Below, in pieces: positions 5,865 to 22,536 of a stretch of 23,921 nt of DNA (position 1 is its first letter; each line of letters begins with the position of its first letter). Position numbers and translations under genes: made by a program. The notes below the pieces were generated by a model. That model made no database searches and was not told where the DNA came from. It saw only the letters and a program-made list of their open reading frames with translations. The DNA comes from a virus: IMG/VR virus record IMGVR_UViG_3300023170_000170, positions 1 through 23,921 of that record; one strand, written 5' to 3'.

Positions 5865-6066
5865 TATTTCTCACCTTTCTAAAATACATACGCCATAGCG
5901 CAGAACGAATCATACTCGTAATCATAAAGATCAATGCGATAGTTATGTTCTCGAGTATCGTAGGGTGTAGCCCAAACAAAGGAAACACCAACAACTGAAT
6001 AGTTATCCCTAATATGAATCCACTCCCTACGTCTACAATACTTTCAAAGATATCTCTACGTTTCAC
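5851..6066 (-). CDS. two-TM phage membrane protein, 71 aa (GTG start)
   Basis: Two hydrophobic segments are clear: VDVGSGFILGITIQLLVFPLF and ILENITIALIFMITSMI. They are separated by a short loop (GLHPT) and followed by a basic tail (RMYFRKVRN). This shape matches a common small phage inner-membrane family (DUF7220-like, from memory) of unknown function. I chose GTG at 6066 because it overlaps the cytochrome stop as GTGA; a GTG at 6081 is also possible. Neither has a strong ribosome site, so translation is probably coupled. Confidence 0.6.
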   Translation of the reverse strand: MKRRDIFESIVDVGSGFILGITIQLLVFPLFGLHPTILENITIALIFMITSMIRSALWRMYFRKVRNNEAR

Positions 6067-6374
6067 TGACTCAGGATCCACCGTACAGCTTGCGCTGTAT
6101 CTTCTTCGTTGATAGCATTAGGTGGCATCGGAATGGGACCCCACACTCCACCACCGCCATTCATAATCTTCTGCACCAGATAGTCCATATCTGCTTCTGT
6201 GTACTTGGCAGCAACATCTTTAAACGCTGGACCAACCAGTTTCTTATCTACCGCATGACACATGAAGCAGTTACGCTCTTTGAGAATCTTTTCTCTCTGG
6301 AACTGTTCTGCTGGAGTTGTCGCCATGACACTAAACCACAAACACGATAATACTACTGCGCTTAATACTCTCAT
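6063..6374 (-). CDS. periplasmic cytochrome c551-type protein, 103 aa
   Basis: A complete class I c-type cytochrome. Residues 1-18 form a signal peptide. The haem-attachment motif is C36-F-M-C39-H40. The distal ligand is Met83 in the diagnostic WGPIPMPPN stretch, and the protein ends RWILSQ. The LVGPAFKDVAAKY segment also matches bacterial c551 proteins. Mature length (about 85) is normal for the family, and no key residue is missing. It would carry electrons in the periplasm after haem loading by the host Ccm system. The start at 6374 follows AAAGGAGG; an ATG at 6395 lies before that site. It sits among small phage genes, so it looks like an acquired metabolic gene. Confidence 0.9.
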   Translation of the reverse strand: MRVLSAVVLSCLWFSVMATTPAEQFQREKILKERNCFMCHAVDKKLVGPAFKDVAAKYTEADMDYLVQKIMNGGGGVWGPIPMPPNAINEEDTAQAVRWILSQ

Positions 6375-6391
6375 TATACCTCCTTTGAGTT

Positions 6392-6628
6392 TCATCTATT
6401 TCTATTTACATCCCAATAAGATTCGTGATGCTTAAGTTCGTCATTTAACATACCGTACTTATGGCGTAGTTGGCTAGTGAGTCCAAACTTCGTTCGTATC
6501 GCCGCACTCGCTCCTGCACTGGTCATCTGAGTACCAATACCGTCCTCACAAATACGTAGCACTTCTTCTAGAATCCGCACCGCATATTCTTCGTGTCCAT
6601 TAGACTTTTCCCAGAGTTCCTCGATCAT
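6392..6628 (-). CDS. hypothetical protein, 78 aa
   Basis: A helical, soluble protein with no recognised domain. The first half is acidic (AVRILEEVLRICEDGIG) and the second basic (IRTKFGLTSQLRHKYG). GGAAG precedes the ATG, which overlaps the upstream stop (ATGA). Its own end lies 17 bases before the cytochrome start. Function is unknown. Confidence 0.6.
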   Translation of the reverse strand: MIEELWEKSNGHEEYAVRILEEVLRICEDGIGTQMTSAGASAAIRTKFGLTSQLRHKYGMLNDELKHHESYWDVNRNR

Positions 6629-15036: not shown

Positions 15037-17106
15037 TCACTTTGTTGTTGCTATAAACACGCCATTCCAATCTTTTGGTAAATCTTGGGTTTGCATGTAC
15101 TCACATCTTTCAATCCACATGTCGTAGTATTTATCGACTTGACCGTCGAAAGAACCTTTTAATTCGTTACACATCTTGATTGCTTGTTTGAACTTTTGAT
15201 CACGATAGAGTTGATGCATCTTATCGTGCCTTTCTTTGTCCTCGTCCCAATCTGCTCTATTCTCACCAAGAACAGTATAGATGCGGATACCGACACTCTT
15301 TCCCTTAACTGCTAACTCGTCTACTTTAAGATAGAAAAAGTCACCTTCAGTAGCATCGTATGTGTTCTCGCCCACTAGCAATAAGCAACCATATTCTTTA
15401 CACTTTGACTCAATACGTGCGGCAGTACTAACAGCATCACCTAGTACATCGTAACTGTGTCTGCTGGTGCTTCCCATTTCACCCAAGTATCCCAGTCCAC
15501 TGTTAATACCAGCACCCATACCAATTGGTGGTCTGCCCTCTGCTGTGATCTTCTCGTTGAACTTCTCAACTGCCCTCAGCATATTGAGACCTGTTTGTAC
15601 CGCACTCTTCGCATGCTCTGGATCATCATTAGGTGCATTGTGTACGTGCATACTGGCGTCACCGATGTACTTGATAACCATACCATCAGCATCTAGCACT
15701 GGTTGCGTGATAGCATCCATGTAGCCATTCATCAATGTTGTGAGTCCCTTCACATCGTCACCGAATGATTCGCCCAACGGAGTAAACCCACGCAAGTCTG
15801 AGAAGCAAATAGATATCTCACGCTTCATGCCGTCTTTGATTAGACTTGGATTTTCCTGCAACATACGAACAACGGTGGGCGAACAGTAGCCAGCAAACTG
15901 TTTCTTGATTGCCTGCTTCTGTTTAAATTCTTCCATGAACCGTAGAAATGCAGTGATTGACCACGTCAAGAACACAGCAAATACTGGGAAGCTCCAGTCT
16001 AACAGCAAGGACTTATCTATAAATGCTTTTCTGGTTACCCAAAATATTCCACCGAGTGAAACTACAATAGAACCGATACCAAAGTACCAGTTCATTCTCA
16101 TAACTACTGCGATTATAATTAGTCCAAGTGCCAACGATACAGTAAGTTCACTGATATCTGACCACCATGGACGACTCATGTTGATTCCGTTAAGCATAGT
16201 GTAGACTGAAGCAGCAACCAAATCATGTGAGTATAGAGTGCCAACTGGAGTAGGTACAGTTGCTTCTAATCCTGATGCTGTTAATGATAGTATAACGATA
16301 CCACCATTGAAGTCTGGTAGATCTTCTAATGAATACTCTTGAACTTTGAAGCGATAGTCAACGTAGATACTACCGTTGCTGTCTGTTTTGATTGTATCAA
16401 ACTGCGGTATGCGTAGTGCCTCAACACCTGCTTCACCGATCTTCATTTGATAACTTGGATCGCCAGCAATAACTCTGATAATTTCCATAGGCAACGACGG
16501 GAATATCCTTGCGCTTTCTGTGTCCTCTTGCGAAGGTATACGTACAACCAGTGGTAGTTTACGCACCACACCATCAGCTTCAGGACTGGTTAACATCATA
16601 CCAACACCGATAGCATTATCACCGATCTCTTTCAGTGGACCAATGGCTTGATCGTAACGGTATAACCAATCTTCCCATCCCTCGCCAATGATAGCCACAC
16701 CACGTGGGACTGGTGTTCCTTTACCGTTTAGTGCTGGTATCTGTCCGACAATAACTGGTGCGTTCTGTAGCAGATCAATAAATGCTGGGTCGCCACCGAA
16801 TCTATCCTCGTCAGCAAACAACATAGGTAGCACAACTAGACCAGCATTTGACTGGAACAATCTGATAATTTGATCAGCCAGCAAGTCACGTGGCCATGGG
16901 AATTGTCCGTACTTATCTAAGGCATCGTTGTCGATAGTTACGACTGATATTAGGATGTCGCTATCTAGACCAATAACTTCCTGCGGTACACTACGCTGAT
17001 GCGTGTCTAGTGCTTTGAGACGAACTACTTGGGAGAACCAAGGATCTTGATAACGTACAGATAAAATTACTAACAATGCAATTAATGCAACCAACCACTT
17101 CTTCAT
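15037..17106 (-). CDS. CHASE2-domain class III adenylate/guanylate cyclase, 689 aa
   Basis: The N-terminal TM (about 4-18) is followed by a CHASE2 extracytoplasmic sensor (about 25-305; DILISVVTIDNDAL, YGQFPWPRDLLA) and three TMs (about 320-390). The cyclase domain is at about 428-610: metal Asp437 (CFSDLRGFT) and Asp483 (KYIGDAS), purine-reading Lys479 and Asp557, Arg564. The transition-state Asn is replaced by Ser560 (VSTAAR instead of VNTAAR), which may lower or alter activity. A helical TPR-like tail follows. It would make cAMP (or cGMP) in response to an envelope signal. The ATG at 17106 has GAAAAGG upstream; the earlier codon is TTG. It follows the FecR and curlin-like genes. Confidence 0.9.
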   Translation of the reverse strand: MKKWLVALIALLVILSVRYQDPWFSQVVRLKALDTHQRSVPQEVIGLDSDILISVVTIDNDALDKYGQFPWPRDLLADQIIRLFQSNAGLVVLPMLFADEDRFGGDPAFIDLLQNAPVIVGQIPALNGKGTPVPRGVAIIGEGWEDWLYRYDQAIGPLKEIGDNAIGVGMMLTSPEADGVVRKLPLVVRIPSQEDTESARIFPSLPMEIIRVIAGDPSYQMKIGEAGVEALRIPQFDTIKTDSNGSIYVDYRFKVQEYSLEDLPDFNGGIVILSLTASGLEATVPTPVGTLYSHDLVAASVYTMLNGINMSRPWWSDISELTVSLALGLIIIAVVMRMNWYFGIGSIVVSLGGIFWVTRKAFIDKSLLLDWSFPVFAVFLTWSITAFLRFMEEFKQKQAIKKQFAGYCSPTVVRMLQENPSLIKDGMKREISICFSDLRGFTPLGESFGDDVKGLTTLMNGYMDAITQPVLDADGMVIKYIGDASMHVHNAPNDDPEHAKSAVQTGLNMLRAVEKFNEKITAEGRPPIGMGAGINSGLGYLGEMGSTSRHSYDVLGDAVSTAARIESKCKEYGCLLLVGENTYDATEGDFFYLKVDELAVKGKSVGIRIYTVLGENRADWDEDKERHDKMHQLYRDQKFKQAIKMCNELKGSFDGQVDKYYDMWIERCEYMQTQDLPKDWNGVFIATTK

Positions 17107-17135: not shown

Positions 17136-17474
17136 TTATTCAGTTTGAGATATTGACATGTTACAACCAGCGGCAGTCACGCAAGTGCCAGAAACTGAGA
17201 TAGATAAATCACTGGAGGAGTTTTGATTCAAATCTAGATCATATGATCCACCACCGTTTGTCAGATCAACAGTCGCATCGTGACCACCAGATCCTTCTTG
17301 CTTAACCCAAACGTCATGTCCGTTGCCACTCAACGTAACATCTGCGGTATGACTACCAGCGTCTAGTTGCTGAATGGAAATGATAGCACTGCTACCAGTC
17401 AAATCCAGTATCACACTATCAGCATAAACAACTGAATTAATTTTGATTAATAGTAATAACGCTATCGTTCGCAT
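17136..17474 (-). CDS. curlin-like secreted repeat protein 2, 112 aa
   Basis: Signal peptide residues 1-18 (ending VYA before DSV). The mature part has about four repeats of around 22 residues with alternating hydrophobic strands and turns: VILDLTGSSAIISIQQ, HDVWVKQEGSGGHDATVDL, SYDLDLNQNSSSDLSISV, ending CNMSISQTE. The Gln/Asn/Gly/Ser positions resemble CsgA/CsgB repeats. Two Cys close to the C-terminus could form a disulfide. It is probably a substrate or nucleator for the CsgG pore. The start overlaps the FecR gene end by 38 bases. Confidence 0.7.
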   Translation of the reverse strand: MRTIALLLLIKINSVVYADSVILDLTGSSAIISIQQLDAGSHTADVTLSGNGHDVWVKQEGSGGHDATVDLTNGGGSYDLDLNQNSSSDLSISVSGTCVTAAGCNMSISQTE

Positions 17475-18489
17475 TTTCTTTTGTATGTAAAGTTACTGGC
17501 ACTCCCGCCTGATTCAATATCAATTGAGTAGAAGAATCACCATCCAAAGTAATACTCACAATCCTACTGTCCACGTTTCTATAGATTATCCAGTCACCGT
17601 CCTTAACGATTTGTGTATTGCCACCTTCAAATGTTCCAGGTTGTATTGGGTTTGTTGTAAATCTCGCAGTCTCTTGAAGTAATTTAGAATTCAGCATTTC
17701 TAAAATATTTGCCAATAAATCAACATCAAGTAAGTTAAAATCTAACCTAGTAAATACAAGTTCATCTTCATCCAGTTCGTTCTCAGCAAGCAAGTCTATA
17801 TCAAGTTCATTGAAGTCTAACATAGACTTTTCTTCGTCGCCCTTCTCTTCTTCTTTTTCTTTTGGTTTCCTAACAATCAACAAGTTGTTTATCTGCGCCT
17901 CAGATAAATCTAATATGACTGGCTGTGATGGTGCCTTTTCTCTAAAGCCAACGACTGTGGCTTGGAATGCTTGATTGAGAATAACTTGACCGACATCTGA
18001 TTCAACAGATATTTCGCCGACTGTTCCGTCAGCATTTGGTAACAGGATAACTAGCGACTTACCTATCTCGTCAACTGTCATACTGAACGCAGTACCACGC
18101 ACACCAATCCTAGCAGTTGGTGTTTGTATGTCTACATTTTGTGCGTTGTTTTTAGCAATCTTACCACTGGCGTACTTGACTGTACCCAGTCCTACCTTCA
18201 TCTTAAGTTTGCTTTTCTTTGGATTGGCTCCATCATAAACAAAGTCATCAATCACCATCTTGCTGTGCTTTTCAATTTGCACTTTAGTATCGTCGTTAAA
18301 TCCGATACCAATAATACCGTCACCTGTACGGATGTCGTCAAACATCTCGACACCCGTATTTTTCTTTATCTTTATCTTATCTTTGTCCCTTACTAACTGC
18401 GCTGGTCCAGTTTGTTTTTCAACTGTACCAATCGCAGCATAAGAAACATCAATCAGAAATAGTAATAGTAACGCTAGAACTCGAGCCAT
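17437..18489 (-). CDS. FecR-domain protein with curlin-like C-terminal tail, 350 aa
   Basis: Signal peptide residues 1-18 (ending SYA). The FecR domain spans about 40-150: VEMFDDIRTGDGIIGIGF ... KVQIEKHSKMVID ... QTPTARIGVRGTAFSM. The centre has a Lys/Glu linker and two Leu/Asp-rich near-repeats (LDFNELDIDLLAE, LDFNLLDVDLLAN). The last 45 residues (VSITLDGDSSTQLILNQAG ... SVITINQN) look like a curlin repeat pair. FecR domains sense or transmit envelope state, and such genes often neighbour CHASE2-cyclases. I infer a periplasmic partner of the cyclase that may contact the amyloid through its tail. It overlaps both neighbours by about 40 bases. Confidence 0.82.
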   Translation of the reverse strand: MARVLALLLLFLIDVSYAAIGTVEKQTGPAQLVRDKDKIKIKKNTGVEMFDDIRTGDGIIGIGFNDDTKVQIEKHSKMVIDDFVYDGANPKKSKLKMKVGLGTVKYASGKIAKNNAQNVDIQTPTARIGVRGTAFSMTVDEIGKSLVILLPNADGTVGEISVESDVGQVILNQAFQATVVGFREKAPSQPVILDLSEAQINNLLIVRKPKEKEEEKGDEEKSMLDFNELDIDLLAENELDEDELVFTRLDFNLLDVDLLANILEMLNSKLLQETARFTTNPIQPGTFEGGNTQIVKDGDWIIYRNVDSRIVSITLDGDSSTQLILNQAGVPVTLHTKENANDSVITINQN

Positions 18490-19129
18490 CTGTAGTCATA
18501 TCCACTGTACTGGCTTCAGCGCCACCTTGCGTTACGCTAATAGTACTGCTACTGCCAGTGTGATTAATAGTTGTATCATGTTGTGCTGAACCACTCTTGG
18601 TCGCACTTACTGTGTTTGTGCTTCCACTGATATCAATGTCAGTTATCTTATTAGTAATACTTGCTGCAGTACTGTTTTCGTTAACTGTGACAGTATTACT
18701 GTCGCCAGTGATATCAAGTGTTATTGTGGCATCTTCAGTTGCTGCTGTTGTTCCAACATTAGTTGTTATATCATTTGAATCGCCAGTAATATTTTCTGTG
18801 TAGTTGACACCATCAGAACCTGCGCTGGTTCCAATAGTTAATGTGCTCTCATTACTACTACCTTGTTGGTTAATTGTGATGTCTGCGTCTGCGCCAGTAA
18901 CATCATAATCAATCGTGTTGCTCGAGCCAACCTGATCGATATCCATAGTAGTTGTTGCACCATCACTAGCAGAATCAGTCGTACTAGATCCAACTCTGTT
19001 GCCTGAACCATCTTGGTTAATGTTGATGGTGGCTGATGAGCCAACTTGATCTATATAAATTAAATTGTCTGCTGTTGCAAAATTAATAAAGAATGTCAGT
19101 ACAGCAGCAATAGCTACTTTTACATTCAT
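18449..19129 (-). CDS. curlin-like secreted repeat protein 1, 226 aa
   Basis: Signal peptide residues 1-20. About ten repeats of around 20 residues follow, each a strand-turn-strand of the type I-x-Q-x-G-S-S-x-x-I: IDQVGSSATININQDGSG, MDIDQVGSSNTIDYDVTG, ITINQQGSSNESTLTIG, then ITGDSN and SGSTN versions. This is the curlin (CsgA) pattern, though Thr- and Asp-rich and lacking Cys. It is a candidate functional amyloid exported by CsgG. GGAGAAG precedes the ATG, which directly follows the CsgG stop codon. Confidence 0.78.
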   Translation of the reverse strand: MNVKVAIAAVLTFFINFATADNLIYIDQVGSSATININQDGSGNRVGSSTTDSASDGATTTMDIDQVGSSNTIDYDVTGADADITINQQGSSNESTLTIGTSAGSDGVNYTENITGDSNDITTNVGTTAATEDATITLDITGDSNTVTVNENSTAASITNKITDIDISGSTNTVSATKSGSAQHDTTINHTGSSSTISVTQGGAEASTVDMTTDGSSSSVTITISD

Positions 19130-19894
19130 TTACTTCTCCTCGTAATCCCAGTAACCTCTTTCCTTACCTTGCTTCGCTAACTCTATGACTGCCTGTTGAA
19201 CTGCCCTTCGTACAGCGTAGTTAACTGGTTCATTTGTTGATGTTCCAGATTCAATCTCTAATACTTTAGTTCCTTGATCGTAAAATTTAAAAATGTTGAT
19301 ACCCACACTGGTGCTCAATATAGTTTTTTCTGTGCTAACATTTAACAAGATATCACCTGTTAACACACTCACTGCTCGTAGACCAACGGTAACTATATCA
19401 CACCGCCATTGACCTGTTGGTCCGATTCCCATAATCCTTGCGCCAGCTCCTCCAGTAAACATATTTGTATCATAACCAATTATACCTCCCTCAATAATAA
19501 TACCAGCGAACTTTAGAGCACCAAGATCTTTATTCTCGTCTGCCTCTTGTCTTGCATTTCTTATAATCTGCCGTTCTTTAATCAAATTATCTAAATTAGT
19601 TCTCTCAACAACGTCAAAAAAGTTTCCATTACTTAACGACATCAAAGCATCTATCAAATAAACTTCTCCACCCTGCGTCACTGCCGTACTAATATTTGCT
19701 ATATTGTCAGCTGGCTTTCGTTGACCAGTTTTATCTAAGAAACTATACACAGCAACAGTAACTGGTTTATTGCTCCCTATATTTGGAAACTCTTTCAGTT
19801 TGTCTTCTGTCTGCGTCTCAGACAACTTTGGTTCCTCCACATATTTCGTAGTGGCGCAACCAGCTAACAATAAAACAAGTAACAATATTTTCAT
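19130..19894 (-). CDS. csgG: CsgG-family curli secretion pore lipoprotein, 254 aa
   Basis: Outer-membrane nonameric pore of type VIII secretion. Lipoprotein signal LLLAG-C13. Conserved CsgG segments are visible in order: VTVAVYSFLDKTGQRKP, STAVTQGG, VERTNLDNLIKERQIIR, IIIEGGIIGYDTN, GGAGARIMGIGP, AVSVLTGDILLNVSTEKTI and GTSTNEPVNYAVRRAV, ending GYWDYEEK. The last 20 or so residues of E. coli CsgG are missing. In the constriction loop the E. coli SNF is NI here and the Tyr is not conserved. The ATG at 19894 follows the CsgF stop by one base; there is no ribosome site, so translation is coupled. Confidence 0.93.
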   Translation of the reverse strand: MKILLLVLLLAGCATTKYVEEPKLSETQTEDKLKEFPNIGSNKPVTVAVYSFLDKTGQRKPADNIANISTAVTQGGEVYLIDALMSLSNGNFFDVVERTNLDNLIKERQIIRNARQEADENKDLGALKFAGIIIEGGIIGYDTNMFTGGAGARIMGIGPTGQWRCDIVTVGLRAVSVLTGDILLNVSTEKTILSTSVGINIFKFYDQGTKVLEIESGTSTNEPVNYAVRRAVQQAVIELAKQGKERGYWDYEEK

Positions 19895-19895
19895 A

Positions 19896-20339
19896 TTAAA
19901 AAGCAAATTGAGCAACAGGTATTTCTACAACAGTTTTTGACCCATCCGTTTGTGTAACATTAAGAGTAACCATATCATCAGTCATTTCATATGATATAGT
20001 ATTTCCCAACAAATCTATTGTCCCTGTTTCCTGTGGATTTTCTCCAAATAACTTATCGCTGATCTGCTTACTCAACTCAGCGTATATTCTACTTTCCAAA
20101 TTAGCAAGAAATTTATTTACGTTAGTATTTTTTGCTTCACGTTCTGCTTCTCTTAAATCCGACTCAATCTTTGACTCTATATCCTTCTTTCTCTGATGTG
20201 TCAAGTTCTCAATAGTCAACACATGACTACTGTATCCTATTCCGTTGAAAGCTGGCGACTTAAATTGATATACAAGATCACCTGCAAAACAATTAGTCGT
20301 CGCTATCAGAAGTATCGTTAGAAGGTTTCTTTTTCTCAT
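19896..20339 (-). CDS. csgF: CsgF-family curli assembly protein, 147 aa
   Basis: Signal peptide residues 1-19 (FA before GDL). The mature N-terminus LVYQFKSPAFNG matches the CsgF segment that inserts into the CsgG pore (F.F..P.FGG). A long charged helical middle follows (ESKIESDLREAEREAK; LANLESRIYAELSKQI), then the strand end TISYEMTDDMVTLNVTQTDG, as in CsgF. It couples substrate release with assembly at the cell surface. It precedes csgG. The start lies inside the end of the holin-like gene (47-base overlap). Confidence 0.88.
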   Translation of the reverse strand: MRKRNLLTILLIATTNCFAGDLVYQFKSPAFNGIGYSSHVLTIENLTHQRKKDIESKIESDLREAEREAKNTNVNKFLANLESRIYAELSKQISDKLFGENPQETGTIDLLGNTISYEMTDDMVTLNVTQTDGSKTVVEIPVAQFAF

Positions 20340-20565
20340 TTTCTCTTATTGCCAGTATTACGTCAACTTTTTGATTAAGTCTTATCAAGTCATTATCTAA
20401 CATTCTAATTCTGTCGATTAAAGCAATCAATGTTACATTTGCTTGACTAGTTACTGGATCAATTTCCTTAGTAACCCATTGCCACACATAGTAAATAAAA
20501 TATCCTAGACCACCTGCAGCAATAATTGGAAATCCGTACTGATTAATTAGTCCTGCGATATCCAT
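20293..20565 (-). CDS. holin-like single-TM protein B, 90 aa
   Basis: N-terminal TM (INQYGFPIIAAGGLGYFIYY), then an amphipathic helix (LIALIDRIRMLDNDLIRLNQ), and a charged tail (NEKKKPSNDTSDSDD). The shape matches YvrJ/BhlA-type small holin-like proteins and the paralogue at 20727-21002 (GFPI.AA...GYF, then LD.R....D.IR...KV). Its ATG follows the 53-aa stop directly. It overlaps CsgF by 47 bases. Confidence 0.62.
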   Translation of the reverse strand: MDIAGLINQYGFPIIAAGGLGYFIYYVWQWVTKEIDPVTSQANVTLIALIDRIRMLDNDLIRLNQKVDVILAIRENEKKKPSNDTSDSDD

Positions 20566-21180: not shown

Positions 21181-22103
21181 CTTTTTTGGCTGTTTTTTAG
21201 GTGCTGGCTTGGGTTCACGAACTTTTTTGCAGGTTGAGGCACCTCCTCGACAACCTCTTCTTCAACCCTTTCGACTCTAGTTGGTCTACCACGATACAAA
21301 CTCCAGTTCGCAGCAATAACCATCAGTACAGCAAGAGGGTCAAATACAACAACGATCATTATAATTACCCAACGAACTGCTCTCTCTAATAAATTCTTAT
21401 CAGGATTATCGCCATATATTAAAGCAGCAACATATTTGATTGGACCAACTTCAGCTTCAAGTGTACGTAACTCAGCATTAATTGGTGCCTTTTCTTTTTG
21501 TAAATCTAGTATCTTTGCTTGACTTGCTTCTATTTCTTTGATGAGTCTGGCTCTATCCTTTGCCTGACTTCTTCTAATTTGTAAAGCACGCTCAGCTACA
21601 TCCTCTTTCTCAAGAAACTCTTTACGCTCTCCGTCGCTAAACAAACTTTCTTCTTTAATACCTTTCTTAACTAAAGTTCTTCCTTCTTGATTCATTTTGT
21701 TATTGACGACAGCATCCATCTGAGCAATAAGAGATTTATTTGCCTCAATCATTTGACGCTCAGTATCTATTTGATAATCTATAATTTCTATTTGAGATGC
21801 TACATCACCTGTTGGCAATGCCTGATCTAAGTGTGCCTTTGATAAGAATCCAAAGATTCCCATTGACGTTAAACACATCAATATTATCAAAGCAAACGTA
21901 AAGTATGACTTCATGAGCAACGGAACTTGTTTCCAGTTGCGATACATCCATGAAGCAACAATTAATTTTGCGACTTCTAAAGAACTTCCCATAACAATGA
22001 TGGGAACAACTGCCGCAGCGAAGATAGCTACCAATCCAGAAATAGCATAGAAGGCAGCAATGGTTGACAACGTTAATGCTGTCACTAAAAGTAAGTAGTT
22101 CAT
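21177..22103 (-). CDS. conserved phage membrane protein with coiled coil, 308 aa
   Basis: Three TMs lie in the first 90 residues (about 3-20, 22-40, 66-87). SLEVAKLIVASWMYRNWKQV and MGIFGFLSKAHLDQA are motifs I associate with a widespread marine phage protein. A long charged coiled coil follows (about 105-220), then another TM (about 235-262) and a Pro/Val-rich tail (EEEVVEEVPQPAKK). It is an inner-membrane protein of unknown function; the coiled coil may face the periplasm. It overlaps both neighbours by four bases. Confidence 0.72.
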   Translation of the reverse strand: MNYLLLVTALTLSTIAAFYAISGLVAIFAAAVVPIIVMGSSLEVAKLIVASWMYRNWKQVPLLMKSYFTFALIILMCLTSMGIFGFLSKAHLDQALPTGDVASQIEIIDYQIDTERQMIEANKSLIAQMDAVVNNKMNQEGRTLVKKGIKEESLFSDGERKEFLEKEDVAERALQIRRSQAKDRARLIKEIEASQAKILDLQKEKAPINAELRTLEAEVGPIKYVAALIYGDNPDKNLLERAVRWVIIMIVVVFDPLAVLMVIAANWSLYRGRPTRVERVEEEVVEEVPQPAKKFVNPSQHLKNSQKR

Positions 22104-22507
22104 TTTTGTAAATTCTTTACATGAGAAGCATGAACCCTCGCCATTATATTTTTATTATACCAATCCGTAGGATTTTCTAACACTTCCCTTAGAAATTGCT
22201 CTTTGGCTTCTAAGTAAGTGCTTTCACCTTTCTTTTTACACAAATACAATATTTCCCGTGTAAAGTTTTCCTCCCCCAGTCGTTGAACATCTGATTTCAA
22301 TTCATCAGAGGATGACCAATATGTTTTCCAATCACTTTCCTCTTTATACCTTTTCTTTTTACCTTTGACTTGTCTAGTCTTAGAAAAATAGAAAAGTTTT
22401 TTACCAATATACTTTTTGTTTTCTAAATTATTTGTTATGAGATAAACAAAGGCAATATATCCTTCAGGTATCTCATTCATTTCTTCATTGTTATATAACC
22501 ACGCCAT
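22100..22507 (-). CDS. GIY-YIG-like nuclease-fold protein, 135 aa
   Basis: The GIY-YIG core is recognisable: FVYLITNNLENKKYIGKKLF, then WKTYWSSSDELKSDV, ENFTREILYLC, the Glu-bearing YLEAKEQF, and WYNKNI with the late Asn. The first motif is FVY rather than GIY and the usual catalytic Arg is not obvious, so activity is uncertain. Such genes in marine phages may be Seg-like nucleases. ATG at 22507 directly follows the terminator and lacks a ribosome site; an ATG at 22480 is an alternative. Confidence 0.62.
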   Translation of the reverse strand: MAWLYNNEEMNEIPEGYIAFVYLITNNLENKKYIGKKLFYFSKTRQVKGKKKRYKEESDWKTYWSSSDELKSDVQRLGEENFTREILYLCKKKGESTYLEAKEQFLREVLENPTDWYNKNIMARVHASHVKNLQK

Positions 22508-22511
22508 GGAC

Positions 22512-22536
22512 AAAAAAAGGGGGATTACTCCCCCTT
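22512..22536 (-). terminator. Rho-independent terminator after the small barrel gene
   Basis: On the minus strand, AAGGGGGA-GTAA-TCCCCCTT forms an 8-bp stem with a four-base loop, followed by a T7 run that overlaps the end of the stem (22512-22518). It lies 25 bases past the stop of the outer-membrane barrel gene. The strongest terminator in the window; it isolates that gene from the GIY-YIG/curli block. Confidence 0.88.

Follow-up and report, generated by a model that had tools for sequence, protein, structure and literature searches.

Among the described systems closest to the locus analysed here are the phage curli operon, which is already published, and the overlapped spanins, which are a known precedent for its gene junctions. 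The operon described for pelagiphages comprises CsgG, CsgF, CsgA/B, FecR, a second CsgA/B and an adenylate cyclase (PMC9599517), and CsgG and CsgF had been reported earlier without CsgA/B (PMC7029224, PMC9004378). In the searched text of PMC9599517 the terms "signal peptide" and "start codon" are absent, "overlapping" is used for host ranges only, and overprinted signals are not mentioned.

The window, i.e. the whole stretch of 23,921 nt that was analysed (a 23.9-kb virus record), carries an operon on its minus strand, from about 21002 down to 15037. It encodes, in this order, two small membrane proteins (both phrog_18771), CsgF, CsgG, two curlin-like proteins (curlin-1 and the small curlin-2) separated by a FecR-domain protein, and a CHASE2-cyclase, and it shares with the pelagiphage type VIII secretion operon (PMC9599517) the order CsgF-CsgG-CsgA/B-FecR-second CsgA/B-adenylate cyclase. 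CsgG (19130..19894, minus strand; PF03783, 1.1e-49) and CsgF (19896..20339, minus; PF10614, 1.6e-17) adjoin each other near curlin, which identifies a type VIII secretion operon. CsgG has a lipoprotein signal (MKILLLVLLLAGC), and its start is placed at the ATG at 19894, favoured over the TTG at 19915. One of the small membrane proteins (20293..20565, minus; phrog_18771, 7.7e-34) is holin-like, with a weak similarity to holin phrog_4898 (0.006). The final gene of the operon encodes a CHASE2-adenylate/guanylate cyclase (15037..17106, minus; PF05226, 1.7e-32; PF00211, 6.1e-18).

Elsewhere in the window a T4-type RNase H at 1452-2324 points to a T4-like phage. The phage also encodes a cytochrome c with a signal-peptide-like start (6063-6395, minus; PF00034, 3e-8), and a SegE-like GIY-YIG homing endonuclease lies at 22100-22513 (minus; 2.9e-37). 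The phage group with curli-like genes is aquatic and widespread. Among bacterial relatives, the top matches in the genome collection have their genes arranged as in the phages and probably represent phage contigs inside MAGs; the remaining matches have the FecR domain alone, a curlin neighbour being absent from the hit table.

Curlin-1 (18449..19129, minus; 226 aa) consists of a signal peptide and repeated strands (PF07012, 4.5e-4). The end of its gene overlaps the start of the FecR gene (17437..18489, minus; 350 aa; phrog_37870) by 41 nt (18449..18489, minus), and the end of the FecR gene overlaps curlin-2 (17136..17474, minus; 112 aa in the window) by 38 nt (17437..17474, minus). We call these overlaps J1 and J2, respectively. 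Read on the minus strand from 18489 to 18449, J1 is ATGGCTCGAGTTCTAGCGTTACTATTACTATTTCTGATTGA: in the upstream frame it encodes the C-terminal strand of curlin-1 (DGSSSSVTITISD and stop), and in the +1 frame the n and h regions of the FecR signal peptide (MARVLALLLLFLI). J2, read on the minus strand from 17474 to 17437, is ATGCGAACGATAGCGTTATTACTATTAATCAAAATTAA; its upstream frame gives the end of FecR (...NDSVITINQN and stop), a curlin-like strand (NANDSVITINQN and stop), and its other frame the start of the curlin-2 signal peptide (MRTIALLLLIKI). Both lengths are 2 mod 3, thus J1 and J2 share one relative frame. An earlier note on this DNA had placed the two junctions at these coordinates, which are exact to the base. 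It had also claimed that each set of bases serves two genes, as the final stretch of the first and as the signal-peptide core of the second, and both junctions do turn out to be real cases of dual coding.

The overprinting would be illusory if the starts were mis-called, that is if FecR and curlin-2 began downstream and the open +1 frame were incidental, and in the isolate HTVC008M FecR is indeed annotated two nt after the curlin stop. In the window, however, the FecR start is forced, because an in-frame stop lies two codons 5' of it and the next in-frame start is found only at residue 49, inside the conserved FecR domain. A start of curlin-2 at either of its next in-frame positions (residue 21 or 25) would leave the protein without its signal peptide. 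The overprinted N-termini do hold a hydrophobic signal-like core; the criteria for a signal peptide were simple rules on hydrophobicity and on the cleavage motif, and the starts were chosen partly by hydrophobicity. Synonymous sites are moreover constrained, as detailed below. We consider mis-called starts extremely improbable.

We compared the junctions across related phages (IMG/VR loci plus the isolates HTVC008M and Melnitz), an overlap being scored as present when it reached at least 15 nt. In all, more than 500 viral contigs have a match to the FecR profile. J1 is overlapped in 84 of the 98 loci having an upstream gene, 77 of them in phase 2 mod 3 and seven in 1 mod 3; J2 is overlapped in 54 loci, every one 2 mod 3. 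Overlap lengths range from 19 to 80 nt at J1 and from 26 to 98 nt at J2, with a constant frame despite this variation; the starts were picked by a simple signal-peptide heuristic, relying partly on hydrophobicity, which affects the exact length and leaves the frame unaffected. The seven 1 mod 3 loci belong to one clade with a 19-nt overlap. In the clade L025-L033 (without L032) curlin-1 ends in DQCTSGC, and the J1 overlap of 19 nt is in this other phase.

On an unrooted tree of 98 FecR proteins the three J1 states require six changes and the J2 states five. The J1 overlap spans nearly the whole tree, across FecR proteins that are only about 40-45% identical. The non-overlapped J1 state (HTVC008M type) lies in the pelagimyophage clade, where it is intermingled with short overlaps; the window and many relatives are placed outside this clade. 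This distribution indicates that the overlap is old and that J1 and J2 are independent of each other. A recent birth of the signal peptides is unsupported, since the J1 overlap is nearly tree-wide among such divergent proteins.

Both reading frames at J1 and J2 are conserved and constrained. The earlier note had proposed a test of synonymous constraint, and suppression was found throughout: in 6/6 clade-junction comparisons the overlap has proportionally fewer synonymous differences than the 30 codons that precede it (inside/upstream 36/58%, 0/43%, 29/52% and 38/59% at J1; 25/54% and 13/37% at J2). Amino-acid change at J1 is about equal or just somewhat lower inside the overlap. Fourfold sites end in T more often inside than outside the overlap, both at J1 (67 vs 45%, p 1.6e-6) and at J2 (78 vs 37%, p 2.6e-14), p values that are inflated by the shared ancestry of related loci. 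J2 offers only 4-5 phylogenetically independent contrasts, in which the frequency of T at third positions goes in the expected direction by 2.6:0 on average, which is not significant.

The FecR strand serves as a natural control, since it occurs in overlapped and in non-overlapped loci alike. In the overlapped ones, compared with the others, third positions are T in 74 vs 36%, +1-frame stops occur in 8 vs 69%, and the +1 hydrophobicity is 2.6 vs -0.33 (p 3e-11, subject to the same inflation). The Gln of this strand is encoded by CAG in 38/52 overlapped tails and in 11/40 non-overlapped ones, for a background of 35%; CAG mostly reads Ser in +1 (whenever a pyrimidine comes next), CAA reads Lys/Asn. 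The Gln of the curlin-1 terminal strand is found in 12/12 non-overlapped loci and in 63% of the loci overlapped by at least 38 nt, and it is lost in the clade of the window (SVTITISD), where the hydrophobic core sits. When the upstream codons were resampled synonymously, the observed overlaps were more hydrophobic than the null, with a median P of 0.02 at J2; at J1 it discriminates poorly (median P 0.21), mostly at loci whose overlap spans no more than the n-region. When the product of the gene behind FecR does not look secreted (MKTFREFTE...), the two genes usually overlap by 4 nt. The constraint tests show that the J1 and J2 overlaps exceed chance.

The preference for the +1 frame follows from the code: the T that closes an upstream codon becomes the middle base of the +1 codon, which therefore specifies F, L, I, M or V. 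ATG is plentiful in +1 because xAT Gxx suffices, which D/N/S-rich ends supply, whereas these ends almost never offer it in +2, where a Cys or Trp codon is required. Resampled strands average +0.7 to +1.3 on the Kyte-Doolittle scale in the +1 frame and -0.7 to -1.2 in the +2 frame, and ATG is several to more than 20 times commoner in +1 than in +2 in every gene group tested. For bacterial overlaps the phase bias has been attributed to start-codon supply, the same reason as here (PMC2542354). One could then suppose that the overlaps are purely compositional and unconstrained, AT-rich phage genes overlapping by chance in the start-rich phase (the null model of PMC2542354). The excess of +1 over +2 ATG does explain the phase, but this supposition fails on the suppressed synonymous divergence, on the T3 and CAG enrichment limited to overlapped cases, and on the persistence of the overlap among proteins of about 40% identity; we regard it as improbable. 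Given the code, an AT-rich upstream tail, beta-strand or hydrophilic, can be adjusted by synonymous changes to yield a signal peptide while keeping its own sequence, and selection then brings such changes about.

A third overprinted signal peptide, which the earlier note did not list, is found at the holin-like/CsgF junction (20293..20339, minus; 47 nt, 2 mod 3), the longest overlap of the window's operon. Here the hydrophilic tail of the holin-like protein (ENEKKKPSNDTSDSDD and stop) encodes in +1 the CsgF signal peptide (MRKRNLLTILLIATT). In the relatives the holin-like/CsgF overlap reaches at least 15 nt in 38/72 loci and the CsgF/CsgG overlap in 18/88, all 2 mod 3, and up to four operon junctions carry the same overprinted arrangement.

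This third junction bears on the proposal, made in the earlier note, that new signal peptides were born from amyloid strands, the strand code coming first and a frame shift turning it into poly-Leu. Part of it stands: the signal-peptide cores do overprint conserved C-terminal strands, and these strands, read in +1, give a hydrophobic sequence even when synonymous codons are chosen at random. Latent +1 starts (ATG plus hydrophobic run) number 0.95 per 100 codons in curlin-1 genes vs 0.46 in FecR genes. But the other downstream genes, at 0.83, have a similar supply, and the hydrophilic holin-like tails are overprinted in the same way, no strand being needed; an amyloid-specific origin was rejected on these two grounds. 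Non-overlapped FecR tails, moreover, mostly carry +1 stops (69%), and non-overlapping homologues, e.g. HTVC008M FecR, have a full signal peptide 3' of the curlin stop. For want of an informative root, the FecR tree does not separate gain from loss. That the signal peptides originated de novo in amyloid strands thus appears unlikely.

The likeness between the two junctions had also led to the suggestion that a unit made of strand, overlap and signal peptide was copied to produce both. In the window the DNA of J1 and J2 is indeed alike: aligned at the stop, the two upstream genes agree at 18 of their final 27 nt (P 0.002 under a null of ordinary synonymous coding), and of the curlin-1 repeats it is the last to which the FecR tail can best be aligned (hhalign P 0.018). 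The 18/27 match, however, is the value that all-T third positions in both strands would yield by themselves. Across relatives the likeness is not locus-specific, the identity of J1 and J2 being 12.6 of 27 within a locus vs 12.2 between loci. The DNA past the stop is unlike (10 of 30), J1 without J2 and J2 without J1 both occur, and FecR is unrelated to curlin outside the tail. As for the tail itself, the hhalign result (probability 2.6%) is suggestive only, and we rejected it as a significant curlin homologue. With no J1/J2 homology beyond the strand, and FecR not being a copy of curlin, a duplicated overlap-bearing unit is not borne out and we hold it to be very improbable. J1 and J2 are very probably old, selectively maintained dual-coding junctions of a phage curli (type VIII secretion) operon, at which the end of the upstream gene carries a +1 start and the hydrophobic core of a signal peptide.

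The products of the overlapping genes were examined by profile and structure. Curlin-1 has curlin repeats in four stretches (PF07012, 20.5 bits vs a cut-off of 20.7); its profile matches the solved curlin-repeat protein 8c50 (5e-8) and, weakly, CsgA (0.03). Its AlphaFold model shows regular paired beta strands, the overprinted strand being the last (218-225), with a pLDDT of 85.8; Foldseek found no match for this fold in the PDB at E<=0.001. Rows from annotated phage records were left out of the alignments used for the structure models.

The FecR protein is laid out as a signal peptide, a FecR-family domain (PF04773, 1.4e-8), an acidic Leu/Asp linker and a beta C-terminus ending in [IV]x[IV]xQ, and tails of this type are found in 93/101 loci, overlapped or not. 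In its model a FecR/PupR-type domain is joined, through an acidic linker of poor model quality, to a beta region at the C-terminus that ends in the overprinted strand; the fold matches PupR/FecR-type anti-sigma regulators (E about 1e-5). The tail may dock FecR to the curlin fibre. The signalling partner of FecR is probably the adjacent CHASE2 cyclase, as judged by neighbourhood only. FecR residues 20-90 weakly match 5ix9, the domain that anchors an antifreeze adhesin to the cell surface (0.0075 from sequence, 0.0097 from fold), which may hint at a fibre-anchoring role of the FecR protein.

For curlin-2 the PF07012 match is only 0.21 in the window and reaches 5e-8 for its positional counterpart in HTVC008M; relatives encode a longer or different secreted protein at this position. 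The second curlin-like protein of HTVC008M (L034, 7031-8356) combines a PA14 domain and curlin repeats, suggesting that the fibre bears an adhesin. Long second genes are also present in L192 (6061-7554), L014 (5037-6497) and L021 (3740-5182). Those of L192 and L014 have a weak N-terminal match to ThuA or DUF4350 (Rossmann-like), followed in L192 by curlin-like repeats; that of L021 (480 aa) is without Pfam match.

In the pelagimyophage clade the proteins encoded behind FecR change while the signal peptide in front of them is retained. There the J2 overlap is typically 29 nt, the FecR tail and the signal peptide remain alike, and the mature cargo varies: Rossmann-like curlin (two classes), PA14-curlin, short curlin or SoxYZ. 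The median likeness of the signal peptides is 59% for different-cargo loci and 61% for same-cargo loci. In 29 pairs of loci with different cargo the signal-peptide DNA is at least 80% alike, 12 of these pairs being formed by the two Rossmann-like classes, which are counted as different and may be distant relatives.

SoxYZ behind FecR uses the FecR-tail signal peptide, with the 29-nt overlap, in six contigs; in other phage contigs SoxYZ has different signal peptides, with no FecR on the sequence pieces examined. Behind FecR, SoxYZ appears to have given up its customary signal peptide for the FecR-tail one. A SoxY-SoxZ fusion lies between FecR and the curlin gene, on the FecR-tail signal peptide, in L168 (6067-6810, 6807-8276), L197-L201 and L204. 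In L168, L197 and L198 SoxYZ is flanked by a 56-bp signal-peptide repeat (49/56 identical); in L168 the displaced curlin gene keeps the second copy of the signal peptide, a real duplication beside the inserted gene. In the window's own clade, L118 carries on the overprinted signal peptide a 112-aa lipoprotein (6025-6363) with an HExxH-like motif (HEMRH), and its curlin gene stands behind this small lipoprotein with a signal peptide of its own.

At the pelagimyophage J2 the FecR tail would have to be kept and its built-in signal peptide would thereby stay put, and a secreted gene recombining in behind the tail would acquire the resident signal peptide. We tentatively propose, as a possibility somewhat short of an even chance, that the FecR-tail signal peptide is a resident, exchangeable export tag: it would survive recombination because the FecR tail strand must be kept, and incoming genes joined after it would become secreted, SoxYZ showing such a case. 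The overlaps could in addition couple the translation of stoichiometrically linked secreted parts, and save genome. Coupled genes typically overlap by 1-4 nt (PMC10666635), and the overlaps here, of 40-80 nt, are larger. We infer these steps of export, coupling and docking from the sequences.

The junctions offer a natural case of dual coding governed by a simple code rule, an upstream T-ending codon giving a hydrophobic +1 residue; as a built-in control, one and the same protein strand occurs both overlapped by the next gene and free of it. They are also a warning to annotators, because the signal peptides of such operons sit within the preceding gene. For phages they outline a possible route to additional secreted proteins, in which a gene is attached behind a signal peptide that its upstream neighbour has to preserve; the cargo recruited by that route here would be adhesin-like curlins and a sulfur-carrier gene.

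The closest architecture is that of the overlapped or embedded phage spanins (lambda Rz/Rz1, P2; PMC6139136), where the export signal of the downstream gene is likewise encoded out of frame in the end of the upstream gene and where non-overlapped relatives exist too. The likeness is one of architecture only: the genes are CsgF, curlin and FecR, not an i-spanin with its N-terminal membrane domain and an o-spanin lipoprotein, and an identification as a spanin pair was rejected. Unlike spanins, the curli operon has up to four such junctions, with type I as well as lipoprotein signal peptides; its upstream tails are putative amyloid strands or hydrophilic, its cargo is exchangeable, and its overlaps are almost always +1, whereas the spanin survey found both +1 and -1 (PMC6139136). 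With the long same-strand +1 overlaps of bacteria (PMC2542354) the junctions share a phase bias that stems from start-codon supply, but in contrast to these the curli overlaps are conserved and constrained at the codon level for a signal-peptide core.
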